A DNA stretch of 43,051 bases from a virus: positions 1 to 43,051 of IMG/VR virus record IMGVR_UViG_3300046675_000397. One strand, written 5' to 3'. Below, piece after piece: positions 14,121-32,795 of the stretch. The notes beneath the pieces were generated by a model. It was not told the DNA's origin. It saw nothing but the letters and a program-made list of their open reading frames with translations, and did no database searches. Every line of letters starts with the position of its first letter. Position 1 is the stretch's first letter. A program made the translations under genes and the position numbers.

Positions 14121-14380
14121 TCGCTTCCGCCTCCGTTCAGCGGCCAGATCTCAGTGGGCAGCCTGTCGAAGACTCGGGCGATCGCGAACTGGGTCCGAGG
14201 GAGGGGAACGGTGCGGCCCTCCTCGGCGTCGCGGATCGTCTTGCCGCTAACTCCGGCTTGTATTCCGAGCTCGTTGGGGGAGAGGCCCGCGTTGATGCGA
14301 AGCTTGACCAAGGTCAGATTCCGCGGCCGCGGCCGCCGCGAGCGGATCTTCGAAACGCGGGTGACGGTTGGGGTCGTCAC
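14117..14380 (-). CDS. HTH (XRE/Cro-like) regulator, first gene of the leftward lytic operon, 87 aa
   Basis: GTG at 14380 is preferred over an upstream ATG (14437) because a good promoter with its -10 at 14388-14393 places the transcript start at about 14381, right at this codon. Residues ~15-25 are basic. The HTH follows: Leu-Thr-Leu-Val-Lys-Leu-Arg-x-x-Ala-Gly-Leu-Ser-x-Asn-Glu-Leu, then Gly-Val-Ser-x-Lys-Thr-Ile-Arg-x-Ala-Glu-Glu-Gly. By position, divergent from the repressor, this is the Cro-equivalent. Confidence 0.82.
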   Translation of the reverse strand: MTTPTVTRVSKIRSRRPRPRNLTLVKLRINAGLSPNELGIQAGVSGKTIRDAEEGRTVPLPRTQFAIARVFDRLPTEIWPLNGGGSE

Positions 14381-14387
14381 TTCCCGA

Positions 14388-14416
14388 AACGTAACACAGA
14401 CTCCCGTTAGATGCAA
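14388..14416 (-). promoter_or_regulatory. Leftward sigma-70-type promoter of the Cro-like operon
   Basis: On the minus strand: -35 TTGCAT (14411-14416), 17-base spacer, -10 TACGTT (14388-14393) preceded by TG-T, an extended -10. The start point would be at about 14381, giving a leaderless mRNA beginning at the GTG of the Cro-like gene. Confidence 0.65.
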
Positions 14417-14430
14417 GCAGTACCCGCTAG
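14403..14430. promoter_or_regulatory. Candidate operator pair CCCGTTAG / CCCGCTAG
   Basis: Near-identical octamers at 14403-14410 and 14423-14430, exactly 20 bp apart (about two helical turns). They overlap the spacer and upstream edge of the leftward promoter and lie just before the repressor start. This is where repressor and Cro would compete. Confidence 0.5.
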
Positions 14431-14438
14431 CCCCCAAA

Positions 14439-14774
14439 ATGGGTGTTTATGGTTGCCTCGTGGACGAGCTGGTGAAGCGCATTCGCGCAGCACGGGCCTT
14501 CGCGCAGCTCTCGCAGCCAGGTGTAGCCGAGCGGCTTGAGATGAGCGATAAGACCTACAAGCTGATCGAGCTCGGGCAGCGCAGGCCGAAGCGGTCAGAG
14601 CTTTTGGCGATCGCGGAGATCTGCACCGTCCCGATGTGGTTCCTCGAGGGCGGCTGGGAGGGCTGGCGCTCTACCGAATCAGGCGAAGGTGGCGAGCCCG
14701 GCGACCTCCGCCCGCGGAATCTGATCCCCCCGGAGGATCAAGGTGGCGCTGCAAATGAAGCCGAGCAAGCCTGA
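14439..14774 (+). CDS. Repressor-like HTH protein (lysogeny side of the switch), 111 aa
   Basis: ATG 14439 (or in-frame GTG 14460; neither has a ribosome binding site, so a leaderless message is possible). The HTH covers ~8-60: Val-Lys-Arg-Ile-Arg-x-Ala-Arg-x-x-Ala-x-Leu-Ser-Gln, Val-Ala-x-Arg-Leu-x-Met-Ser-x-Lys-Thr-Tyr-Lys-x-Ile-Glu-x-Gly. A Trp-rich then acidic/Gly tail follows. There is no Ser-Lys LexA-type protease domain, so it would not be inactivated by RecA cleavage like lambda CI. Transcribed divergently from the Cro-like genes. Confidence 0.8.
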   Translation: MGVYGCLVDELVKRIRAARAFAQLSQPGVAERLEMSDKTYKLIELGQRRPKRSELLAIAEICTVPMWFLEGGWEGWRSTESGEGGEPGDLRPRNLIPPEDQGGAANEAEQA

Positions 14775-15102
14775 GCTCGGAGGGCTCGGGTCCATGGTCC
14801 TGGAGGCCACACAGGGCCAGGTAGGCGATCACCAGCAGCCGCTCTCGTTTGACCCCGCCGAGCACAGCTACCGCATGCCCCCAGCCTTCCCGGTTCTCCC
14901 CTTTTTCGGTTGTTCTTCAGTGGACGACACTCGCCTCCCGATGGATGAGCCAACCCCCTGCCGGATTGGAGCGGTGATCACCTGGGCTAGATCACGGGGC
15001 GATCATAGGCCGGGTTTTCGAGCCACTGGCCAGATGCCCTACAGCCAATTTGGTGCGAGGACTTTCGCCTGTCCGCAAACAGCGAGAATCCAGTCGAGAT
15101 AG
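14743..15102 (+). CDS. Uncertain 119-aa ORF downstream of the repressor
   Basis: GTG 14743 has GGAGG six bases upstream and overlaps the repressor 3' end, a typical coupling. But the product has mixed composition, no recognisable domain and many rare-looking residues, and an antisense frame (14671-14865) looks about equally protein-like. Besides this ORF, nothing clear is seen in the stretch 14775-15112. Confidence 0.33.
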   Translation: MALQMKPSKPELGGLGSMVLEATQGQVGDHQQPLSFDPAEHSYRMPPAFPVLPFFGCSSVDDTRLPMDEPTPCRIGAVITWARSRGDHRPGFRATGQMPYSQFGARTFACPQTARIQSR

Positions 15103-15112
15103 GAGCCGAACA

Positions 15113-15337
15113 TTGAGCCATCGCCAGATATTCATCGGAGCATTCGCTGTCCTGGGCCTGCTGTTTATCTGGCCGCCGCTAGCAGCCCTGGTGTTGGCGG
15201 TGATGATCGTGGTCGCAGTCGTCACCTGGCTGACCGATAGCGGCCGGCCATGTCCTCGCTGCGGCGAGAAGGTCCCGACCGGCACCCTCGATTGCGAGCA
15301 TTGCGGCTTCGATTTTCGGACCATCGGCGCGGATTAG
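15113..15337 (+). CDS. Two-helix membrane protein with C-terminal zinc ribbon, 74 aa
   Basis: TTG 15113 is chosen because AGGAG (15101-15105) precedes it by seven bases; the longer frame from 15050 lacks this. Two adjacent hydrophobic segments (about residues 6-40) are followed by Cys-Pro-x-Cys-Gly ... Cys-x-x-Cys-Gly, a rubredoxin-like zinc ribbon. Expressed on the lysogenic strand after the repressor, so superinfection exclusion or envelope modification in the lysogen is plausible, not shown. Confidence 0.72.
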   Translation: MSHRQIFIGAFAVLGLLFIWPPLAALVLAVMIVVAVVTWLTDSGRPCPRCGEKVPTGTLDCEHCGFDFRTIGAD

Positions 15338-15515
15338 TGGCCGTGAAAAGCCCCAGTCTCGGAAGGGACTCCGGCGCCCGAGGTCTCAGGTGCATGTCGA
15401 GGGCCAGGCATGGCAGCCATCAACCTCAGGTCGAGGGCTAGCTGGATTTGCGGGAAATCTCGTAATTTGTCACCCCGGACCAGGCGGTTCCGGCTAGCAT
15501 GATTCGCCACAACGC

Positions 15516-15547
15516 AAAGAGGGAGGACCCGAAGGCCCTCCCTCTTT
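15516..15547. terminator. Bidirectional hairpin terminator
   Basis: Perfect 11-bp stem (AAAGAGGGAGG at 15516-15526, CCTCCCTCTTT at 15537-15547) with a 10-base loop. The T-run is only three bases on either strand, but the position between convergent transcription units fits a terminator for both. Confidence 0.7.
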
Positions 15548-15557
15548 GGAAATTCAT

Positions 15558-15633
15558 GGGGCTATAGGTAACGCCTGGTCCGCAATCGCCCTTCAAGCAC
15601 CGCGGATGTGGGTTCAATTCCCCACTAGCTCCA
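15558..15633 (+). tRNA. tRNA-like sequence, degenerate (possible tRNA remnant or att core)
   Basis: A 76-nt segment with a perfect 7-bp acceptor stem allowing one G:T (GGGGCTA/TAGCTCC), discriminator A, and a T arm GTGGG/CCCAC. The T loop has eight bases (TTCAATTC), one more than normal. The middle cannot form a normal anticodon arm: it gives a 3-bp D-like hairpin and a 6-bp stem (GTCCGC/GCGGAT) with an 18-base loop. No anticodon can be assigned. Either a decayed tRNA, an aberrant phage tRNA, or a piece of host tRNA carried as an attachment sequence. Confidence 0.4.
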
Positions 15634-17559: not shown

Positions 17560-19155
17560 TCAGCGGGGAGCCTTCACCTGGTCGACCGGCCTTTCGTCCG
17601 CCACCGTCGGCGCCGCGTTGATCAGCTGCTTCCGGGATTCGCCGCCGAGTGGCAGCTTCACCTTCGCCCGCGGAGCTCGCCGGGCCCGGCGCGGCAGCTT
17701 CTTCACCCGGAGGTCGACCAGGGCCGAGCGCCCGCCGACCAGCTTGTCGACGTCGACGTCGCCATTGACGCCGGCCACGGTCGCAGTCGAGGTGTACTGC
17801 CAGAGCAGGTCCGTCGACCAGGGCGGGCTCGGGACCACCGCCTTGCTGACGCCGTAGTCGGCGATCCACAGTCGGTACTTGCCGAGCCAGCTGCAGCTCG
17901 AGAAGTAGGTCTGGGCGAAGCTCGGGTAGGTGTAGACGATCGCCTTGACTCCGAGGTTGCGGCGCACCAGGCGCAGGAAGGAGCCGACGTAGCGACAGGT
18001 CGCCTGTGGGTTAAGCTCGCTCGTCTCGACGTCGAGGACAGGCGGCAGGAAACCCTTGCCGTAGCCGGCGTGTCCGACCACCTGGGTAAACCAGGCCGCC
18101 TCCCGGGCGCCTGTGCGGTCGGCCCTGGGCCGAAGATAGTGGTAGACGCAGGGCACCAGGCCCGCCTCGGTGACGGCACGCAGCTTCTTGCGCCCGAAGC
18201 CAAAGTCGACGTAATCCTGACCCTCGGAGGCCTTGACGCAGGCGAAGCTGGCGCCGGCGTGGCGGACTGCTCCCCAGTCGATTTCCCCATTGTTGGAGGA
18301 GACGTCGATGCCCCAGGCCGGGCCCTTCGGCTTGTGGTGGTGCCGGTGCTTCTTCTTCGGCTTGTGGTGTTTCGGGTGCTTGACCGCCGGCGGCGCCTTG
18401 GCCGTGTGGGGGACGTGCTTCGGGGTCGTCTTGATCGGCTTGGAGAGCGGCCGGCGCAGGCGCTTCCACACCCGCGGGCTGATGATCCCGTTGACCTTCA
18501 GGTACTGCGCGTGCTGGAAGTGTTCGACCGCGACCTTGGTCGAGTGGCCGAACTCGCCGTCGACCGTGACGCTCTTGTCGCCGTGGCCGCGGAGCAGCTT
18601 CTGGACCTTGCGGACGTATACGCCCTGGCCGGGGCCGCCGGAATGCAGCCGCAGGATCGGGTCGTGGAGGTTCGTCCCGGGATTGGGGCGGTGGAAGACC
18701 GGAGTCCATTTGATATGCCACCACTCGCTCGGCGCGTCGGACCAGCACTTGCACCAGCCGAAGCGCTTCCCATGGAGGTCGATATAGCCACGGGTCGCCT
18801 GTGTGACGTCGATCGCCAGGCCGAGGCCGTGATTGGAGGTCCCCGGGATCGCCGCGTTGCCGCAGCTGCCGAGGCCGCACCAATAGGCGCGATAGTAGTC
18901 CTGGCGAGCCAGGGGCCGGTAGGCCGAATCGCAGCCGTTGATCGGGAGTCGCTGGCCGGCGCCGAGCGCCATCGAGTTGAAGGCCGCCGCCGCATGGTTT
19001 TCGAGCTGGCCCTCGAGGGGCGTGCACTTCACCCCGGAAGCGATCGGCGACATCGCGCTCGCCGGCGCGTCTCCATTGGTGAAAGCGGCGGCGCCCTGGG
19101 CGCCGCCGAGGATGGCTAGCAGCGCGCAGAGCGCAGCGAGGGTGGTCCGCCGCAT
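17560..19155 (-). CDS. Secreted two-headed endolysin: M15 peptidase + PG-binding + GH25 muramidase, 531 aa
   Basis: A Sec-type signal peptide spans residues 1-24 (two Arg, hydrophobic core, Ala-Ala-Ala). The M15/VanY-like peptidase domain covers ~40-160 with Ser-x-His109 ... Asp116 and Glu144-Trp-Trp-His147 as zinc/catalytic residues. A PG-binding-1 domain follows at ~165-232. The linker at 240-278 is extremely Lys/His/Pro-rich. The GH25 lysozyme domain covers ~280-475 with Asp284 and the Asp375-x-Glu377 pair. It would cut both stem peptide and glycan strands. The signal peptide implies export independent of the holin. C-terminal basic tail of ~50 residues. Confidence 0.95.
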   Translation of the reverse strand: MRRTTLAALCALLAILGGAQGAAAFTNGDAPASAMSPIASGVKCTPLEGQLENHAAAAFNSMALGAGQRLPINGCDSAYRPLARQDYYRAYWCGLGSCGNAAIPGTSNHGLGLAIDVTQATRGYIDLHGKRFGWCKCWSDAPSEWWHIKWTPVFHRPNPGTNLHDPILRLHSGGPGQGVYVRKVQKLLRGHGDKSVTVDGEFGHSTKVAVEHFQHAQYLKVNGIISPRVWKRLRRPLSKPIKTTPKHVPHTAKAPPAVKHPKHHKPKKKHRHHHKPKGPAWGIDVSSNNGEIDWGAVRHAGASFACVKASEGQDYVDFGFGRKKLRAVTEAGLVPCVYHYLRPRADRTGAREAAWFTQVVGHAGYGKGFLPPVLDVETSELNPQATCRYVGSFLRLVRRNLGVKAIVYTYPSFAQTYFSSCSWLGKYRLWIADYGVSKAVVPSPPWSTDLLWQYTSTATVAGVNGDVDVDKLVGGRSALVDLRVKKLPRRARRAPRAKVKLPLGGESRKQLINAAPTVADERPVDQVKAPR

Positions 19156-21570: not shown

Positions 21571-22206
21571 TCAGATTTCGGTCGGCAGGATCTCGGCGAG
21601 GTCCACGAAGGACGCGAACGTGGCGCCCAGACCCGCCCAGGTTTCCCATTTAGTCGACGCTGCGATGTCGGCCCAGGTCACACCTTCAATCGCTTCATAG
21701 TCGAGCTCCTCCCAGGCCGGGACCGCAGCCCGGACAAGAGCTTTCGTCCTCGCCGGGTCGGGAGTCTGCGAGAGAAGGGTGCGGATGTAGTGATGCCCCG
21801 GTTCCGGGGTGCGCGAGTGGATGATGACCAGCGGATCTTCGCCGGTCAGGGTCCGCTGCACGGTGAGTCGGATCACCGGATCGGTTCCACGCACCCAGCC
21901 GGTCGGCGCCGTGATCTCAGCGCGGATCTGCGCCTCGGACATCTCCGGGGTGATGACCACGCCGACGAATTGCGCCAGGTAGGGCAGTGCCGCGCCGGGA
22001 CACTCATCGGGATCCAGCAGCTTCGACCAGGCCGGGGTTCCGTCCTCGCCTTCCCCGGCCAGTTCGGCCACCGGATCGATGAGCGTTTCAACCCAGGCCG
22101 CGCAGAACTTCAGCAGCGCCCAGTCATTCGCTTCGTCTTCCGTGGTGAACCAGCCGAGCGCCGAATAGAGGTCTTCGGTGAGCGAGGAGACGACGGGCCG
22201 CGCCAT
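21571..22206 (-). CDS. Baseplate/tail protein I-like (P2 gpI family), 211 aa
   Basis: The family signature is visible: Asp-Pro-Asp-Glu-Cys-Pro ... Leu-Pro-Tyr-Leu-Ala-Gln-Phe-Val-Gly-Val, then Ile-Arg-x-x-Ile-x-x-Pro-x-Gly-x-x-Arg-Gly-Thr, a hallmark for this wedge-associated family that follows gpJ. It connects the wedge to the fibres. Only three bases from the gpJ stop. Confidence 0.85.
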   Translation of the reverse strand: MARPVVSSLTEDLYSALGWFTTEDEANDWALLKFCAAWVETLIDPVAELAGEGEDGTPAWSKLLDPDECPGAALPYLAQFVGVVITPEMSEAQIRAEITAPTGWVRGTDPVIRLTVQRTLTGEDPLVIIHSRTPEPGHHYIRTLLSQTPDPARTKALVRAAVPAWEELDYEAIEGVTWADIAASTKWETWAGLGATFASFVDLAEILPTEI

Positions 22207-22209
22207 CGT

Positions 22210-23604
22210 CTAGCTCGTTACGACGATTTGGGCAGGTTCCGGGAGGGCGACGGTGCCGGCCAAGCTCACATCGGCGATCCCCACCTTCACCGCCGAGCCC
22301 GATCCGTCAGAGGTGATGTTGATCGCGGCACCGCCCACCGTCGCGGTCAGCTTGAAGGCGTTGGCTTCGGCGTCGCGCACGTAGTAGACGGTTCCCGTCG
22401 CTAGTGGCGCCCCCGGGACCAGGCCGCTCCGCAGGACGACAGCATCGCCGTTGGAGAAGCCGTGTGCGGTCGAGGAGAAGACGTCGGTCGCGGCGGCGAC
22501 CGTGAAGGCTTTGCCGGTTCCCCCACCGACCAGCAGGGTGATGACCCGGCCGACACCGGCGGCGCGGTCAAGTTCAGAGATCAGCTCGTTGTAGTAAAGG
22601 GTCGTCTGGTTGGTCCAGCCGGATCCGCTGAGATCGCCCGACTGCGGCTTGCCCCATTCGGCGGGAGAGAGATAGGCGCTCAGCACCGACTCTCCGGCAG
22701 CCGTCACGGTCGCCGGATCGAAGCCGGTGTCGACGGAGACCTTCGCCACGACGATGATCGGGGTGTAGCTGGGGTCAGCCACATGGACGTCGACCCCGGA
22801 GGGAACCTTTGCCTGCTGGCGTTCCTGCAGGATTTCCTTGACCCCGGCGCTCAGTTTGGCCCCGTCCGCGTCGACCGGGAAGACCGACACCGCGAGTGCT
22901 TCTTCTTTCGATTCGGCGGCGTTGTAGGCCTCGATCGCCTTGGCCCGATCGATCCCGGCGACTGCGCGGGCGTCGATCTCGAAATCGCGGGCGATGATCA
23001 GCGATAGCGAGAGGAGCTGCAGCGTTTCGACCAGGCGGTTAAGGTAAGCATCTTCATCCTCCTCATCCACGCCGCCCGACGTCGGCGCCAGCACAGTGAT
23101 CGATTTGACGAACGCCAAAGCGTCGATCAGCGAGGGAGTGCCTTCCAGGCCGTTGCCTTCCTCGCCCGGTTCGACCGCTTCGATGAAGATCGTTGTCGTT
23201 TCACCGCCCGGGGCGATAGTGGCGTCTTCGGCGGTCTTGAAGCCGACCGACTGGTCCCCCGTCGCCGCGATCGCCACCTGCGTCCCAGCAGGGATCGTGT
23301 AGCCCGCCGTGTCGACCATCGTCCATTGCGTGAGGGCGGTGGCCGGGGCGGCCTGGATCGGGGGGACACCGGCGATCGCTTCGCCGAATCGCTTGAAGGC
23401 GGCGGCCGAGAGGATCGAGGCCTGGTCGAAGATCGTCGCGCCGATGCGCGAGAAGGCCTTCGTCAGCCAGACCTCGAGGTTGCCTTCGGCAGGCGTCCAG
23501 TCTCCGAACGCGGCCTCTATCGCTTCATAGACTTCCTGCTCGAGCGATGTGGCATCAGCTTCACCCTCGATCGCGACGAATTCGCTAGGCACTTGCTGGC
23601 TCAC
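22210..23604 (-). CDS. Baseplate J-like wedge protein, 464 aa
   Basis: N-terminal helical part (Ala-Phe-x-x-Trp-x-Pro), then the J-domain pattern Ala-Thr-x-Leu-Thr-Gln ... Gly-Tyr-Thr-Ile-Pro-Ala-Gly-Thr-Gln-Val and the Glu-Pro-Gly-Glu-Glu-Gly-Asn motif (~145-155). Further on is Gly-Gly-Val-Asp-Glu-Glu-Asp-Glu-Asp-Ala-Tyr-Leu-x-Arg typical of P2 J/T4 gp6. A Gly/Thr-rich C-terminal extension (~365-455) with strand repeats may be an added domain. Start overlaps the gp25-fusion stop by 20 bases. Confidence 0.92.
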   Translation of the reverse strand: MSQQVPSEFVAIEGEADATSLEQEVYEAIEAAFGDWTPAEGNLEVWLTKAFSRIGATIFDQASILSAAAFKRFGEAIAGVPPIQAAPATALTQWTMVDTAGYTIPAGTQVAIAATGDQSVGFKTAEDATIAPGGETTTIFIEAVEPGEEGNGLEGTPSLIDALAFVKSITVLAPTSGGVDEEDEDAYLNRLVETLQLLSLSLIIARDFEIDARAVAGIDRAKAIEAYNAAESKEEALAVSVFPVDADGAKLSAGVKEILQERQQAKVPSGVDVHVADPSYTPIIVVAKVSVDTGFDPATVTAAGESVLSAYLSPAEWGKPQSGDLSGSGWTNQTTLYYNELISELDRAAGVGRVITLLVGGGTGKAFTVAAATDVFSSTAHGFSNGDAVVLRSGLVPGAPLATGTVYYVRDAEANAFKLTATVGGAAINITSDGSGSAVKVGIADVSLAGTVALPEPAQIVVTS

Positions 23605-25606
23605 TTTCGATCGTCACGCGCTTGGTCATCTCCTCAACCGCCGCCTCACCGAGCAGGTGGGCCCGCGGCTCGACGGCCTCTACTGCGGCGAGGTAGAGAT
23701 CGGCATTCGGATTCGGCCCGAGCTGGGTGAAGGTCTCATCTGGGATCCCGTAGTCGGGGACGTCGAGGCGGGAGCCGGCTTCGGTGCTGAGCGCCGCAGT
23801 CACGCAATCCGTGATCTCATCCGTGCTGCCCTGCTCGACTGTCGCGGCCGAATCGCTGACCCGGAAGGGATGGGAGAAGTGCGGGCGCCCGCCCTTCGCC
23901 TTCTTCGGCGAGACGGTTTCGATCGTCGCTTCCAGCTCCCCACCCGGCTCCGGTACCGTCGTCAGCGGGGTGAGTCCGGCCGCCGCCGGCCCGAGATAGT
24001 AGCTGTTGCCGATCCCGCCTTTGTAGTCGGCTTCGGAGGCTTCTGAGGAGTCGCCCGGCCAGTCGAGCCGTTCGCCTTTTTCGTTGGCGACGATGTTGTT
24101 CCAGAAATAGACGACTGCCTTGATCCGAGGGAACTGTTCGGGCAGGACGTGGTCGTAGAGATTGCGCAGCCAGGTCGGCTTTGAGCCGCCGGTCTCTGAC
24201 GCCGCGATCTCGCCGAGCATGATCGGTAGGTTCGGGGCGAGCTGGAGGAGCTTTTCGTAGCTCGCCTTAAGCAGCGTGCGGGTCGTCTTCCAGCCGACGT
24301 TATGCAGCGGGCTCGAGCACGAGTAGGCGTCGAGCCCCGTCCAGTCGACGAACTCTTCTCCGGGCCAGGTTTTGTCGATCCATTCTTCGTCGATCGTCGC
24401 CGAGATCGCATTCGGGCACCACACGAAGGTCGCGTTCGGCGCGATCGCCTTGACGATCCGGTGAAGGTACTGCCACGCTTCCTTGTGTTCGATGTGGCGG
24501 GACCACGGCCAATTCGATTCGGAGAGGTTCTGCTCCCACCAGGGCCGCACGAAGAACGGGTGGCCGAACGCCCGGGCTGCCTGCGCCCACTTGATGATCG
24601 ACGTGTCGTGCTTGCCTTCGAGGACTTCTTTGAGGATGTTGGTCCCGCCACCGATCGACTTCATGACGATCGCCCCGCGTGCATGGACTGCGGCACTCGC
24701 GCCGGCGCCATAGCCGTCCCACCGCAGCCCGGCTTTCCCTTCTTCCTGTTCTTTCTTCGTGCCGGCGGTCCAGGGGTCGGAGATATGCAGGATGCCGACC
24801 TGCTTGCCCGCCTGGGACTCATAGAGATCGAGCGCTTCGAGCCCCTGGGCGCTATAGGGCGGGTCGTCGTTGCCGATCGCCTTGGTGTCGCCGTCGACCA
24901 CCGCGCCCTGGTAGCAGGCTGGCGGGCGGGCGGGCGGCGTAGTCGTCCCCGCGCCGTAGATCTCGGTGATATCCCCCGCGCTGAGCACACGGTCAAAGAG
25001 CGCAACATGGCCGATGTAGCCGTTCCAGTTCGTCGAGGCGGCGACTCCCACCTGGAAGACGCCCGCCGAGGCGCTGAAGTCTTTGGCCATCGTTTTCGCG
25101 CCCTGGCTCGCCGCGTTCAGATAGAGGATCGCGGAGTTGCCCGGGTTATCGAAGGTGACCGCGACGTGCCGCCAACCTTCTGCAGGGAAGACGCCGGCCC
25201 AGGCTGCGGTTCCGCCTTCGGCTCCATTGGCGTCGAAGTTGAATTGCAGCGGCGCTGTCCCGCTCGTCAGCCACAGACGAGCGGTGGCCGCTCCATTCGA
25301 TCCCATCAGGCGGTTGTTGGTCGCGTTCGGGATCAGGTAGGCCCAACACATCAGCGTCATCGAGGAGCCGGGCGTGAAGGGGGCGTAGCTGTTGTTCGCG
25401 TCGATCCGGTGCCCGGACGCGGCGGTGTATTTGACAGCCCGCTCGGGGTCGCCGGTCAGCGGGCCTGGCTGCGCAAGCAGGGCGCCATTCTTGTAGGTGC
25501 CGTCGCGACCATGGCCGGAGACGTCTTCGGCCACTGTGGCACCGGACTCGGCGCCGGGCCAGTAGAGAATCGGCGCATGTTTCATCACCGCTTCGCGGTA
25601 GGTCAC
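23585..25606 (-). CDS. Fusion: LamG-like lectin + GH26-like glycosidase + gp25-like baseplate wedge domain, 673 aa
   Basis: Residues ~1-220 form a concanavalin/LamG jelly roll (Ser-Met-Thr-Leu-Met-Cys-Trp-Ala, Gly-Trp-Arg-His-Val-Ala-Val-Thr-Phe, Tyr-Ile-Gly-His-Val-Ala-Leu-Phe). Residues ~231-545 resemble GH26 glycosidases: Val-Arg-Pro-Trp-Trp-Glu358 as acid/base and Met-Leu-Gly-Glu466-Ile as nucleophile, with Trp-Cys-Pro-Asn between. Residues ~575-670 match gp25/W wedge proteins: Phe-Ser-His-Pro-Phe, Leu-Ser-Thr-Glu-Ala-Gly-Ser-Arg, Pro-Asp-Tyr-Gly. No stop separates them. Gene order hub-OB-gp25-J-I is standard, so a glycan-degrading module was apparently inserted into the wedge gene. Confidence 0.85.
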   Translation of the reverse strand: MTYREAVMKHAPILYWPGAESGATVAEDVSGHGRDGTYKNGALLAQPGPLTGDPERAVKYTAASGHRIDANNSYAPFTPGSSMTLMCWAYLIPNATNNRLMGSNGAATARLWLTSGTAPLQFNFDANGAEGGTAAWAGVFPAEGWRHVAVTFDNPGNSAILYLNAASQGAKTMAKDFSASAGVFQVGVAASTNWNGYIGHVALFDRVLSAGDITEIYGAGTTTPPARPPACYQGAVVDGDTKAIGNDDPPYSAQGLEALDLYESQAGKQVGILHISDPWTAGTKKEQEEGKAGLRWDGYGAGASAAVHARGAIVMKSIGGGTNILKEVLEGKHDTSIIKWAQAARAFGHPFFVRPWWEQNLSESNWPWSRHIEHKEAWQYLHRIVKAIAPNATFVWCPNAISATIDEEWIDKTWPGEEFVDWTGLDAYSCSSPLHNVGWKTTRTLLKASYEKLLQLAPNLPIMLGEIAASETGGSKPTWLRNLYDHVLPEQFPRIKAVVYFWNNIVANEKGERLDWPGDSSEASEADYKGGIGNSYYLGPAAAGLTPLTTVPEPGGELEATIETVSPKKAKGGRPHFSHPFRVSDSAATVEQGSTDEITDCVTAALSTEAGSRLDVPDYGIPDETFTQLGPNPNADLYLAAVEAVEPRAHLLGEAAVEEMTKRVTIESEPASA

Positions 25607-25622
25607 TGACGTTCCTCCAGGT

Positions 25623-25916
25623 CTAGAAGGCTGAGTCGGGAACGGTGGCGCTCGGCTGCCACCAGATGATCACGCCGGGTCCGTCACGGTGGGCCGAGAT
25701 CACGGCGCGATCGCCCTGCTTCGGGTAGAAGACGCCGACCGCAGTGATGACCGGGTTCCACGCCATCGGGTCACAGACCTTCAGCGGGTCGAAGTTCGGG
25801 ATCACGCAGGTGACCTCCTGCCCCAGCGCGATCGCGCTTTCGTTGACCCGCGCCTCGTGCAGTTCACCGGGCGGGAGCCGGACACTGTCGGTCGTGAGTT
25901 TTCTGAGGTCGGGCAT
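25623..25916 (-). CDS. Small OB-like baseplate protein (gpV/spike position), 97 aa
   Basis: The pattern Gly-Gln-Glu-Val-x-Cys-x-Ile-Pro-Asn-Phe-Asp-Pro, then Trp-x-Pro ... Tyr-Pro-Lys-Gln-Gly-Asp-Arg-Ala-Val-Ile and Val-Ile-Ile-Trp-Trp-Gln-Pro fits a single OB fold like the base of gpV/gp5 spikes. There is no beta-helical needle or PAAR segment, so it may be only the collar of the spike. Position between hub and gp25 supports it. Confidence 0.7.
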   Translation of the reverse strand: MPDLRKLTTDSVRLPPGELHEARVNESAIALGQEVTCVIPNFDPLKVCDPMAWNPVITAVGVFYPKQGDRAVISAHRDGPGVIIWWQPSATVPDSAF

Positions 25917-27844
25917 CAGTACCCCGCCGGGTGGCGCTTTGTGTCGAATTGGGTGAGAAATGCCTTGACCTGACCTGGATCGACCTTGCCCCAGCCACCT
26001 GCGGAGTTCGTGTTCTCGCCGCCGCCACCGGACTCGAATACGTTTCCGGCGATGTCGATCGCGGTGTGTTCTTCTTCGGCACTGCCGGTCGTCTTCACAT
26101 ACACCGTGATCTCGGAGCCCTTGCCCGCCTGCCCGAAGGCTGCGAGGCCAGTGGTGTCGAGGGGCGAGCCGATGAAGCCGCCGACGTGGAGCACGAAGGA
26201 GACGCCCCCTGAGCAGTCGTAGGGCCCCGTGAAACCGGGGTCGTGGCCACCGCCCCAGGCATAGGGTCGCTTCTTCGCGGCCTCGTTTTCGGCAGCCTGG
26301 AGCATTCGTTCCACGGTCGCGTTGCCCGCTGCGGATCCGGTCAGGCCGCCGGCTCCGGATGCGCTCACCGTTGAGGTCTGGGCTGCAGGCTCGGGGAGCG
26401 GGGCAGTCGGTTTTTTCAGCGTGATCGTCGCGGCCCGGGCCTCGACATCGCCCGCCACAGGCGATTCGATCGCGGAGACGAGATAGCGCCCCTTGCCCTC
26501 ATGGGTCTTTGCCTTCACCGCCGAGCTGATGCCCTGGACCTGGCCCTGTTTGTTCGCCCTCAGTGGGGCGTCCCCGCTTCCCAGGCTGGCGGGGCCATAG
26601 TCGGCAAGGGTCACCACCGCACCGGGGGGAGGCTTCCAACCGTTGACCAGCGCAGTGACCGTGGCCTCAGTGACCGCCTTGTTGACATTGAAGTCGAAGT
26701 CGATGTTTTCGATGCCGTCCGTGTCCTGGTCGATCGCCAGCCGGACCTGGCCACGGATCAGTTCGATCTCATCGATGAAGAAGAAGCGGCCGGCGACGAT
26801 GAAGGCCCGCCAGTTGACCTCCTTGGCGAGCCGCTGGATCGCGTCCCAGTAGGTTTCCTTCGGTTCGACTTTGAATTCGTAGGGCTCAGTGACGGTGACC
26901 GAGGTGGAGGTGGTGCCACCGCCGAAGGCTTCAAGCCATTTGCGGGCCTCTTTACCGACGCCGTCATAGCGTTCGGGGAACTTCGACCCCTGGATGGCCT
27001 GGGCGATTTCGCCCGCCGAGGCACCGGGGTTCGCCCTGAAGTAGCCGATCGCGCCATTGCCGGTCGGGTCGACCCCCCATCCACCGGTCAGGAAGCGGTG
27101 GATGTCGGACTCGTTCGATTCCGACTTGGAGGCTGGTGTGGCCTGCAGGGGATTGCCAGGATCGAGCGACCCCATTTCGGTCTCGACGATCAGCGCCTCG
27201 ATCAGCGCGAGCGTGACCTTAAACGGAGCATGGACAGATTCGGCGATCCGCAATGCGTCATCACCGAGATTGACCTGATCGCTGTCCGCCGCATGGCCCT
27301 TGACAGTCAGGCCCTTGGTTTCGCCGATCCCCTTGCCGCGGTTGGCCTTCGCTTCTTCGCCGGCCTTCTTGCCCTGCGACTTTTTTTCAATCGGCTGTTT
27401 GTCGTGGAGCTGGGGGCAGAAGAAGTCGAGCGAGGGGTTCGCCTCGTGGACAAGCGACTTGATGAACTCGGCCCGTGTCACCTCTTCGCGGAACGCCCGT
27501 TTCGGCCCCAACACTTCGCGGATGATCGCCACGTCGCGGTCCTCGAGCGTCAGCGTCAGCGTCTTGCCGGCCTTGCTGGTCCCGATGTAGCGAAAGTGCA
27601 GGCCGTCGACCTCCGCGTCCCATTTTTCGGAGAGCAGAGAATGCCGCAGAAAGCTCAGGTTCGGGTCATAGACCGGGATCGTCAGCGAGGAGGAGCCGTC
27701 GATGGTTCGCGTTACCAGCGGCGTCGGGGTGATCCCTTCGCCGATCTCCTCTATGAGCTTCTTCCCACCGCGAAGTACGAGATCGCCGAGGTCGGAGCCG
27801 ATGCCCTGAACGCGGTCCCGCGCCGGCGCTTTAGCGGGGCTCAT
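25916..27844 (-). CDS. Tail hub protein (gpD/gp27-like) carrying lysozyme-like and NlpC/P60-like wall hydrolases, 642 aa
   Basis: The N-terminal ~140 and middle ~315-480 residues have hub-domain character (Tyr-Trp-Asp-Ala-Ile-Gln-Arg-Leu-Ala, Phe-Phe-Ile-Asp-Glu-Ile). Residues ~195-310 are a lysozyme-like insert: Leu-Ile-Glu-Ala-Leu-Ile-Val-Glu-Thr-Glu, Gly-Ala-Ile-Gly-Tyr-Phe-Arg, Glu-Ala-Arg-Lys-Trp-Leu, with Glu221 or Glu223 as catalytic candidate. Residues ~505-615 are NlpC/P60-like: Pro-Tyr-Ala-Trp-Gly-Gly, Tyr-Asp-Cys544-Ser-Gly, later Glu-His593-Thr-Ala-Ile. It would open the wall at injection. Follows LysM gene with a 4-base overlap. Confidence 0.88.
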   Translation of the reverse strand: MSPAKAPARDRVQGIGSDLGDLVLRGGKKLIEEIGEGITPTPLVTRTIDGSSSLTIPVYDPNLSFLRHSLLSEKWDAEVDGLHFRYIGTSKAGKTLTLTLEDRDVAIIREVLGPKRAFREEVTRAEFIKSLVHEANPSLDFFCPQLHDKQPIEKKSQGKKAGEEAKANRGKGIGETKGLTVKGHAADSDQVNLGDDALRIAESVHAPFKVTLALIEALIVETEMGSLDPGNPLQATPASKSESNESDIHRFLTGGWGVDPTGNGAIGYFRANPGASAGEIAQAIQGSKFPERYDGVGKEARKWLEAFGGGTTSTSVTVTEPYEFKVEPKETYWDAIQRLAKEVNWRAFIVAGRFFFIDEIELIRGQVRLAIDQDTDGIENIDFDFNVNKAVTEATVTALVNGWKPPPGAVVTLADYGPASLGSGDAPLRANKQGQVQGISSAVKAKTHEGKGRYLVSAIESPVAGDVEARAATITLKKPTAPLPEPAAQTSTVSASGAGGLTGSAAGNATVERMLQAAENEAAKKRPYAWGGGHDPGFTGPYDCSGGVSFVLHVGGFIGSPLDTTGLAAFGQAGKGSEITVYVKTTGSAEEEHTAIDIAGNVFESGGGGENTNSAGGWGKVDPGQVKAFLTQFDTKRHPAGY

Positions 27845-31373: not shown

Positions 31374-32795
31374 CTAGATCGCCTCCTTGACCACTTCGAT
31401 TTCCACTCGCTCGGCGCTGGCGCTCATCTTCACGGCGATGATCGCCTTCAGCTTGCCTTCGCTGATCGTCTGCTCTGTGTTGACCTGTTCGCCCGTCTCG
31501 ACCTGGAAGGCTTCTTCGGGAGTTTCCCCGAACAGTGCTTCCTGGTCGAAGAGGGGCAACAACACCTCAGCGACGAGATCGCCGTTGAACTTGGCGATCT
31601 CATGCGTCGTGATCTGCGCAAACAGATGCCGCTCCGCGACGGCTTCTGCCCGTGAGCAGATCGCCATGTTGAGCCGAGCGTTCGAGAGCTGGATCCAGGT
31701 GTTATCGACCAGCGGGTTGACCAGCGTCACGTTGTCATAGGGACGCGGGACGCCGTTCAGCTGCCGGATCACGTTCACCCCGGCTTCGGAGAGCACGGTG
31801 CGGTTTTCCGCCGACCACGGCACCTGCGAGACGTTGGTGCAGTAGCGAGCCAGGTGTTCGACTCCCGCGAGCGCCTCGTTGGGGTTGCCGCCGGATCCGT
31901 CGTTCCGGGCCGCCAGCCCCGCCATCAGCGCACAGGGCGGCACGGTCCGGGTCGTCCCCGGCGTGATGCCCGGGACGATGACCCATGGCGCGAACAGCGC
32001 CATGTAGCGAGCGGTGGACTGTTCGCGCAGAGTCGTCGCCTGCGAGGTCAGGGTGCCAACCGTCGCCGTGTCGGTGCCATCGAGGAACGCGACGCGGTTC
32101 TTCGCCTTCGCATGGGCTGCGATCGCTTTCTGCGCCGCTTCGGTCGTTTTCCCGGGAGAGGAGACCTGGCCGGGACCGAGATGCGCCGAGAATAGCGCCA
32201 GCGCCGCTTCGTGCTGGGTCTCGGTGATGTTTTCCCGATCGTCGGTCCCCGAGGCGAGCGTTTTGGTCGCCGCCGCCGGGTTGCCTTTGCCGAGGTCGAT
32301 GAGGCGGATGTAGGGGGAGTTGGCGAAGTAGGCGACGGCCTCCGCGTTGGAGGCGAGGCCGGCCTTTTCTTCGACCACGACGCCGCCGAGTTTCACCTGA
32401 GCTTTGAATTTCGAGCTTTCCGTCGTGGTAATCAATTCGAGCCCATTCGCCCAGGAGCCAACCGAGGTCGCGTTGATGGTCAGGGTGTTTTCCGAGGAGC
32501 CATTTTTCGCGATCGCCGTGGCGAGGGCCGCGGCAGGGCCGCCTTCCCGGGCCACGTATAGACGCGAGCCGCCCTCTTCGAAGAAGGTCTGCGCGGCGTC
32601 GTAGAGGGTGATACCGCCCGATCGCTGGCCGAACTGCGACACAAAGGCGGCCATGTTGAGGATCAGGACGGGTTCGTTGATCGGGCCTTTTTCGGCCTGG
32701 CCCGTGACGAACCATGTCCCGGTGTCGGTCGGGGGAGACGATGACGGCGCAACAGACCCCGATGTGACGGAAACTCCTGGTGCTCCTGAACTCAT
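31374..32795 (-). CDS. Contractile tail sheath protein, 473 aa
   Basis: The N-terminal part has Thr-Gly-Thr-Trp-Phe-Val-Thr-Gly-Gln-Ala-Glu-Lys-Gly-Pro ... Phe-Val-x-Gln-Phe-Gly and Phe-Phe-Glu-Glu-Gly-Gly-Ser-Arg-Leu-Tyr-Val-Ala-Arg, the sheath signature. The C-terminal domain has Arg-Leu-Asn-Met-Ala-Ile-Cys-Ser-Arg-Ala-Glu-Ala and a final strand region. It defines the phage as a myovirus. Sheath subunits assemble around the tube and contract to drive it through the envelope. ATGA overlap with the small upstream gene. Confidence 0.96.
   Translation of the reverse strand: MSSGAPGVSVTSGSVAPSSSPPTDTGTWFVTGQAEKGPINEPVLILNMAAFVSQFGQRSGGITLYDAAQTFFEEGGSRLYVAREGGPAAALATAIAKNGSSENTLTINATSVGSWANGLELITTTESSKFKAQVKLGGVVVEEKAGLASNAEAVAYFANSPYIRLIDLGKGNPAAATKTLASGTDDRENITETQHEAALALFSAHLGPGQVSSPGKTTEAAQKAIAAHAKAKNRVAFLDGTDTATVGTLTSQATTLREQSTARYMALFAPWVIVPGITPGTTRTVPPCALMAGLAARNDGSGGNPNEALAGVEHLARYCTNVSQVPWSAENRTVLSEAGVNVIRQLNGVPRPYDNVTLVNPLVDNTWIQLSNARLNMAICSRAEAVAERHLFAQITTHEIAKFNGDLVAEVLLPLFDQEALFGETPEEAFQVETGEQVNTEQTISEGKLKAIIAVKMSASAERVEIEVVKEAI

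Follow-up and report, generated by a model that had tools for sequence, protein, structure and literature searches.

The fusion gene and its surroundings

The analysed DNA, called the window here over its full length of 43,051 nt, was the IMG/VR record IMGVR_UViG_3300046675_000397, a single linear virus contig of metagenomic origin that may be incomplete. The following features were assigned:

31374-32795, minus strand: tail sheath gene (phrog_23, 3.5e-37).
25623-25916, minus strand: 97-aa gene immediately upstream of the fusion, assigned to the spike/OB slot by position alone with no Pfam or PHROGs family match.
25614-25618, minus strand: ribosome-binding site GGAGG, 7 nt upstream of the GTG start.
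23585-25606, minus strand: fusion gene of 673 aa with LamG, GH26, linker and gp25 sheath-initiator parts (ORF, Pfam, PHROGs, structure model, coding signal).
24968-25393, minus strand: LamG or ConA-like lectin domain, residues 72-213 (PF13385, E = 1.9e-17).
23987-24925, minus strand: GH26 (beta/alpha)8 domain, residues about 228-540 (Pfam, profile, model).
24533-24535, minus strand: predicted acid/base Glu358 in the motif RPWWEQN.
24209-24211, minus strand: predicted nucleophile Glu466 in the motif PIMLGEIAA.
23885-23986, minus strand: Pro/Gly-rich linker of ~35 aa, residues 541-574, of low model confidence.
23588-23884, minus strand: gp25/TssE-type sheath-initiator domain, residues 575-673 (phrog_5026 and family profile).
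23663-23671, minus strand: EPR motif, residues 646-648 (E646, P647, R648), invariant in the alignment.
22210-23604, minus strand: baseplate J gene, directly downstream of the fusion with a 20-nt overlap (PF04865, 2.5e-25; phrog_6, 4.7e-27).
21571-22206, minus strand: gpI-like tail protein (Tail_P2_I, 21.7 bits versus 20.6).

The fusion gene consisted of 673 uninterrupted codons starting with GTG, and stops were present in the plus-strand reading. A preliminary description of the sequence had proposed a single 673-aa frame with LamG, GH26 and C-terminal gp25 parts; this layout was recovered by the ORF, Pfam, PHROGs, profile and model analyses, which added the strand. The third-position GC was steady over the entire frame, linker included. 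The score of the LamG domain with PF13385, 64.2 bits, was well above the cut-off of 27.6. In the AlphaFold2 model, pLDDT was below 50 across residues 541-575. No in-frame ATG, GTG or TTG was present from codon 464 to 601 of the gene. The gp25 part thus has no start codon of its own and would not be made without the enzyme by ordinary initiation.

The tail sheath gene in the record indicates a contractile tail. The genes were arranged in the order hub, 97-aa OB/spike-slot gene, fusion, J and gpI, and the fusion therefore occupies the slot directly before J, as the preliminary description had stated; in a sheath-bearing phage this is the slot of gp25. Two cultured phages, Altadena of Arthrobacter and DalanDe of Gordonia, encode a 'baseplate wedge protein' directly before J, with a length of ~105-107 aa. 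The C-terminal stretch of the window J, residues about 368-439 (22213-22510, minus strand), matched tail-fibre and unknown phage families, and J was shorter in two related contigs, L004 (388 aa) and L008 (385 aa). The hub-like protein (25916-27844, minus strand) ended in YDCSGGVSFVLHVGG...HTAIDI and resembled an NlpC/P60-type cysteine hydrolase, with no Pfam match. A probable endolysin was located at 17560-19155 (minus strand); its single chain combined a GH25 lysozyme domain with a peptidoglycan-binding domain and a weakly VanY-like part.

The GH26 domain

PF02156 was matched at residues 336-430 with an E-value of 1e-3 and 19.0 bits in hmmscan, against a cut-off of 20.2, and with 20.9 bits, above the cut-off, in the genome search. 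With a profile of seven phage relatives, CtLic26A was retrieved at E = 3.9e-44 and other GH26 enzymes ranked after it. The AlphaFold2 model had a mean pLDDT of 59 overall, with mostly 70-93 in the barrel blocks, where eight strands alternated with helices; the confidence of the LamG and gp25 portions was low. CtLic26A was also the first hit of Foldseek with the predicted barrel (E = 2e-19, TM-score by target 0.78-0.83). The profile search and the structure prediction, both suggested in the preliminary description, thus led to the same enzyme, and the GH26 assignment is certain once the relatives are added.

CtLic26A, the lichenase of Clostridium thermocellum, is the nearest solved enzyme by sequence and fold, and its catalytic Glu residues align with those of the window protein. 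It differs in being bacterial, in having about 22% identity and in carrying His where the window protein has Trp before the acid/base. The predicted acid/base, Glu358, follows strand 4 of the model and was aligned with the acid/base of CtLic26A. The predicted nucleophile, Glu466, lies in strand 7; its counterpart in the alignment is CtLic26A position 222, a Gln in the entry 2cip. Catalytic Glu residues at strands 4 and 7 are the arrangement of clan GH-A, and the same two residues had been picked as acid/base and nucleophile before any model was available. E358 and E466 were invariant in all the relatives compared, from phages and from bacteria.

The position preceding the acid/base was occupied by Trp in the phage clade and, among the bacterial relatives shown, by His, Pro, Ala, Asn or Cys. 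The His of CtLic26A is thus absent from this position in the window protein and is not strictly kept within the bacterial relatives either. The replacement of the usual GH26 His by Trp beside the acid/base makes the activity and the substrate uncertain. In a sample of 397 genomes from the phylum to which an actinobacterial MAG belongs, 39 had GH26 relatives, which makes a bacterial origin of the enzyme plausible. Among cultured phages, the sole match to the 673-aa protein was a 23%-identical 'endoglucanase' of GX15bay, encoded as a separate gene.

The gp25 domain

In PHROGs, residues 577-630 matched phrog_5026 'baseplate protein' with an E-value of 5.9e-6, accompanied by a weak gp25 match. The window domain alone reached 14.9 bits with PF04965, below the cut-off of 27.2, whereas the relative L007 passed with 29.1 bits. 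A 20-member profile of the family, 18 members of which matched PF04965, retrieved the solved structures 2ia7 (7e-7), T4 gp25 (5iv5, 1e-4), TssE (6.5e-3) and pyocin PA0617 (7e-3). The identity between the window domain and the same-slot proteins of five contigs related through J (L003-L007) was 48-56%, and the EPR motif, known from gp25-type proteins (PMC3352280), was invariant. Taken together, profile, motif and gene position assign the C-terminal domain to the gp25 family. The gp25 proposal of the preliminary description was therefore upheld by the family profile, which recovered T4 gp25, and by phrog_5026, but not by PF04965 with the single sequence.

All PF04965-, phrog_5026- and GH26-like matches of the record fell within the fusion gene. 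A gp25 gene elsewhere had been named beforehand as evidence against the fusion acting as gp25; no second gp25-like sequence was detected across the 43 kb of the linear, possibly incomplete record.

Occurrence of the fusion in related contigs

The gp25 slot was compared in the five viral contigs related via baseplate J. A stand-alone protein of ~100 aa was encoded there in L003, L005, L006 and L007, and a 647-aa fusion in L004 (IMGVR_UViG_3300046796_000847). The L004 protein was 41% identical to window residues 218-671, straight through the GH26-gp25 junction. Its GH26 part scored 34.0 bits (cut-off 20.2), its gp25 part matched phrog_43 at 9e-8, and its N-terminal ConA-like domain had no match to the window LamG. 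No gp25 was found outside the fusion in the L004 contig. This second case answers the call for the same fusion in relatives, and, as an independent contig, it excludes that a stop was lost between residues 545 and 575, which had been raised as an objection. An in-frame ATG preceded by AGGAAGG was present at codon 538 of the L004 fusion, just ahead of the gp25 part, and could allow separate production of gp25. The sheath frame of the L004 contig (C1:23689-25107) was broken by one in-frame TAG, due to a sequencing error, a pseudogene or read-through.

About 50 contigs with this gp25 type were collected by gp25 motifs, as a survey and not as a random sample. An enzyme on gp25 was detected only in the window and L004; nearly all the others had a stand-alone gp25 of ~100 aa. 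In L008 (5509-6252), whose gp25 is 64% identical to that of the window, a domain of ~145 aa with a weak CBM_4_9 match (E = 2.9e-4) was inserted between the first strand of gp25 and the remainder, which indicates that cargo is accepted at the N-terminal edge of gp25. For L008, the AlphaFold2 model (pLDDT 52) was too poor for use. By sequence, the gp25 N-terminal edge in this lineage is thus assigned added modules in three contigs: the window, L004 and L008.

Other long gp25 frames (L006/L016, L017, L019, L020, L025, L027, L032, L035, L036 and L047) were rejected as fusions because the arginine content of the upstream frame was 21-32%, compared with 3-4% in both real fusions, and a normal gp25 start was present just before the domain. 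With the whole 673-aa protein, no match was obtained among the genome contigs and viral contigs; the relatives surfaced with domain alignments.

The lectin and GH26 cassette in other phage proteins

Window residues 2-569, comprising LamG and GH26, aligned with an internal region of a 1,644-aa protein from L048 (35% identity), and L004 residues 1-533 with the N-terminus of a 1,053-aa protein from L051 (42% identity). No gp25 or sheath match was obtained in the L048 and L051 contigs. Stand-alone members were detected in L049, L052 and L053. Downstream of its tail genes, the L004 contig had a further GH26 gene, separate from the fusion (14188-15588; PF02156, 42.4 bits). In L006 (11145-13049), a 634-aa fusion protein joined another baseplate component, gpI (Tail_P2_I), to LamG and to a polysaccharide-lyase domain (PF14099). 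By these alignments, the lectin and GH26 cassette is a shuffled module, found again in phage contigs lacking a sheath, where it is part of large proteins. The fusion itself was correctly recognised in the preliminary description, which had one case in view; it is an instance of a wider module exchange.

In L110 (3-2006), the frame of a GH26 with the canonical His-Glu continued into a neck adaptor of the SU10 type (PF24175, E = 9e-19). An AAGGAA ahead of an internal ATG suggests that this adaptor may be made alone, possibly giving two products.

Discussion

The fusion is confirmed by sequence comparison as real and present in at least two phages, and its anatomy is well supported: one gene, with the only gp25 of the record, encodes three domains and has both predicted catalytic Glu residues in place. 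The protein is probably the tail-sheath initiator (gp25/TssE) of a contractile phage with a transplanted N-terminal lectin and GH26 cassette, forming about six baseplate arms that would clear host glycan. The sheath initiator of XM1 sits on each (gp16)2-gp17 wedge bundle and is tied to the first sheath ring; after contraction it is fitted rigidly except for the N-terminal 22 residues (PMC10457771). TssE was assigned six copies (PMC5813253). If this placement in XM1 and T6SS is carried over by analogy, about six gp25 copies would sit on the wedge bundles beneath the first sheath ring, and about six LamG-GH26 arms would therefore hang around the baseplate on flexible tethers of ~35 residues. LamG may hold a surface glycan and GH26 may cut a beta-linked host polysaccharide, and the cutting would open the way for the tail, either ahead of contraction or in the course of it. 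As no start codon is present between the enzyme and gp25, the baseplate would not be buildable without the enzyme. The copy number of six, a substrate among capsule or wall polymers and the link to contraction, all put forward in the preliminary description, would follow from the knowledge of T4, XM1 and T6SS.

The GH26 domain could instead be catalytically dead and serve, with LamG, only as an adhesin, making the fusion a receptor-binding arm on the sheath initiator. Trp stands in place of the usual His beside the acid/base throughout the phage clade, the fused forms always keep a lectin-type domain, and the CBM-only gp25 of L008 shows binding alone in use. We nevertheless consider a dead enzyme unlikely, as both catalytic Glu residues were invariant in all the phage and bacterial relatives compared and the barrel was intact in the model. 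It is also quite improbable that most baseplates contain bare gp25, produced by cleavage or from an internal start, with the LamG-GH26 half as a separate or minor-copy enzyme: the ATG of L004 at codon 538 with its upstream AGGAAGG would permit this, but the absence of ATG, GTG and TTG between window codons 463 and 602 leaves cleavage only. We know of no protease site in the fusion.

The gp25 domain might serve as an anchor only, while the sheath is started by an ordinary second gp25 encoded elsewhere in the genome. Such a gene could lie beyond the ends of a linear, possibly incomplete record, but the tail module is otherwise complete, with the fusion in the position of gp25, and neither the window record nor the L004 contig had another gp25, which makes this very improbable. 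That two genes were joined by an assembly or frame error deleting a stop is hardly credible. Although the record is a single metagenomic contig, the same order and frame were found in L004, which comes from a different assembly and is 41% identical across the junction, and the coding signal was even and the arginine content normal (3-4%) along the frame. An enzyme-bearing sheath initiator is the preferred reading.

A broader proposal is put forward tentatively and with considerable doubt. The phage-specific Trp-Glu GH26 subfamily with its lectin might be a mobile module that uncultured phages graft on core virion proteins: on gp25 where the tail is contractile, and on large proteins of tail type where there is no sheath. 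When fused to gp25, it might form an enzyme ring at the wedge-sheath joint and so couple polymer cutting physically to contraction.

Few small components of contractile injection machines are as conserved as gp25/TssE, and its solved examples are, with few exceptions, bare proteins of about 105-150 aa. That gp25 here carries some 570 extra residues, including an enzyme, implies an N-terminus able to point outward and to take a load. One lectin and enzyme cassette is shown to move between unlike tails, and attention is drawn to a subgroup of GH26 whose active site is altered. The fusion makes it testable whether a surface-polymer hydrolase can be indispensable to the core of the baseplate, and whether its action precedes contraction or accompanies it.

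Comparison with known systems

No gp25-enzyme fusion and no GH26 baseplate protein were found in the literature search, with most subscription papers outside its reach; the preliminary description likewise knew of no described example. The stand-alone gp25/TssE-type initiators (T4 gp25, XM1 gp15, pyocin PA0617 and the Arthrobacter and Gordonia wedge proteins) share the family, the EPR motif and the slot before J with the fusion, but have about 105-150 aa and no enzyme. The solved Photorhabdus chain 9qgl (239 aa) is of the gp25 type with an N-terminal extension. Gp119 of Bacillus phage Vp4, a baseplate wedge protein with carbohydrate-binding modules, was shown to bind cells (PMC11406892); it is similarly a core wedge protein bearing glycan-binding domains, but it is another wedge protein (BW3, A511 gp105-like) which only binds and has no glycosidase. 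Gp255 of the Bacillus jumbo phage BpSp is a virion glycoside hydrolase bound to a baseplate protein (PMC4870245). It likewise places a glycosidase at the baseplate of a contractile phage, but as a separate protein with LysM domains and a cell-wall substrate, unfused to a core protein. The evolved Dit proteins of phages that infect Gram-positive bacteria, which carry CBMs (e.g. PMC6669499), are also small conserved ring proteins of the tail end that gained glycan modules, whereas they belong to non-contractile tails, are Dit and not gp25, and lack GH26. With the present fusion, the sheath initiator joins the list of sites where phages mount glycan-active modules.
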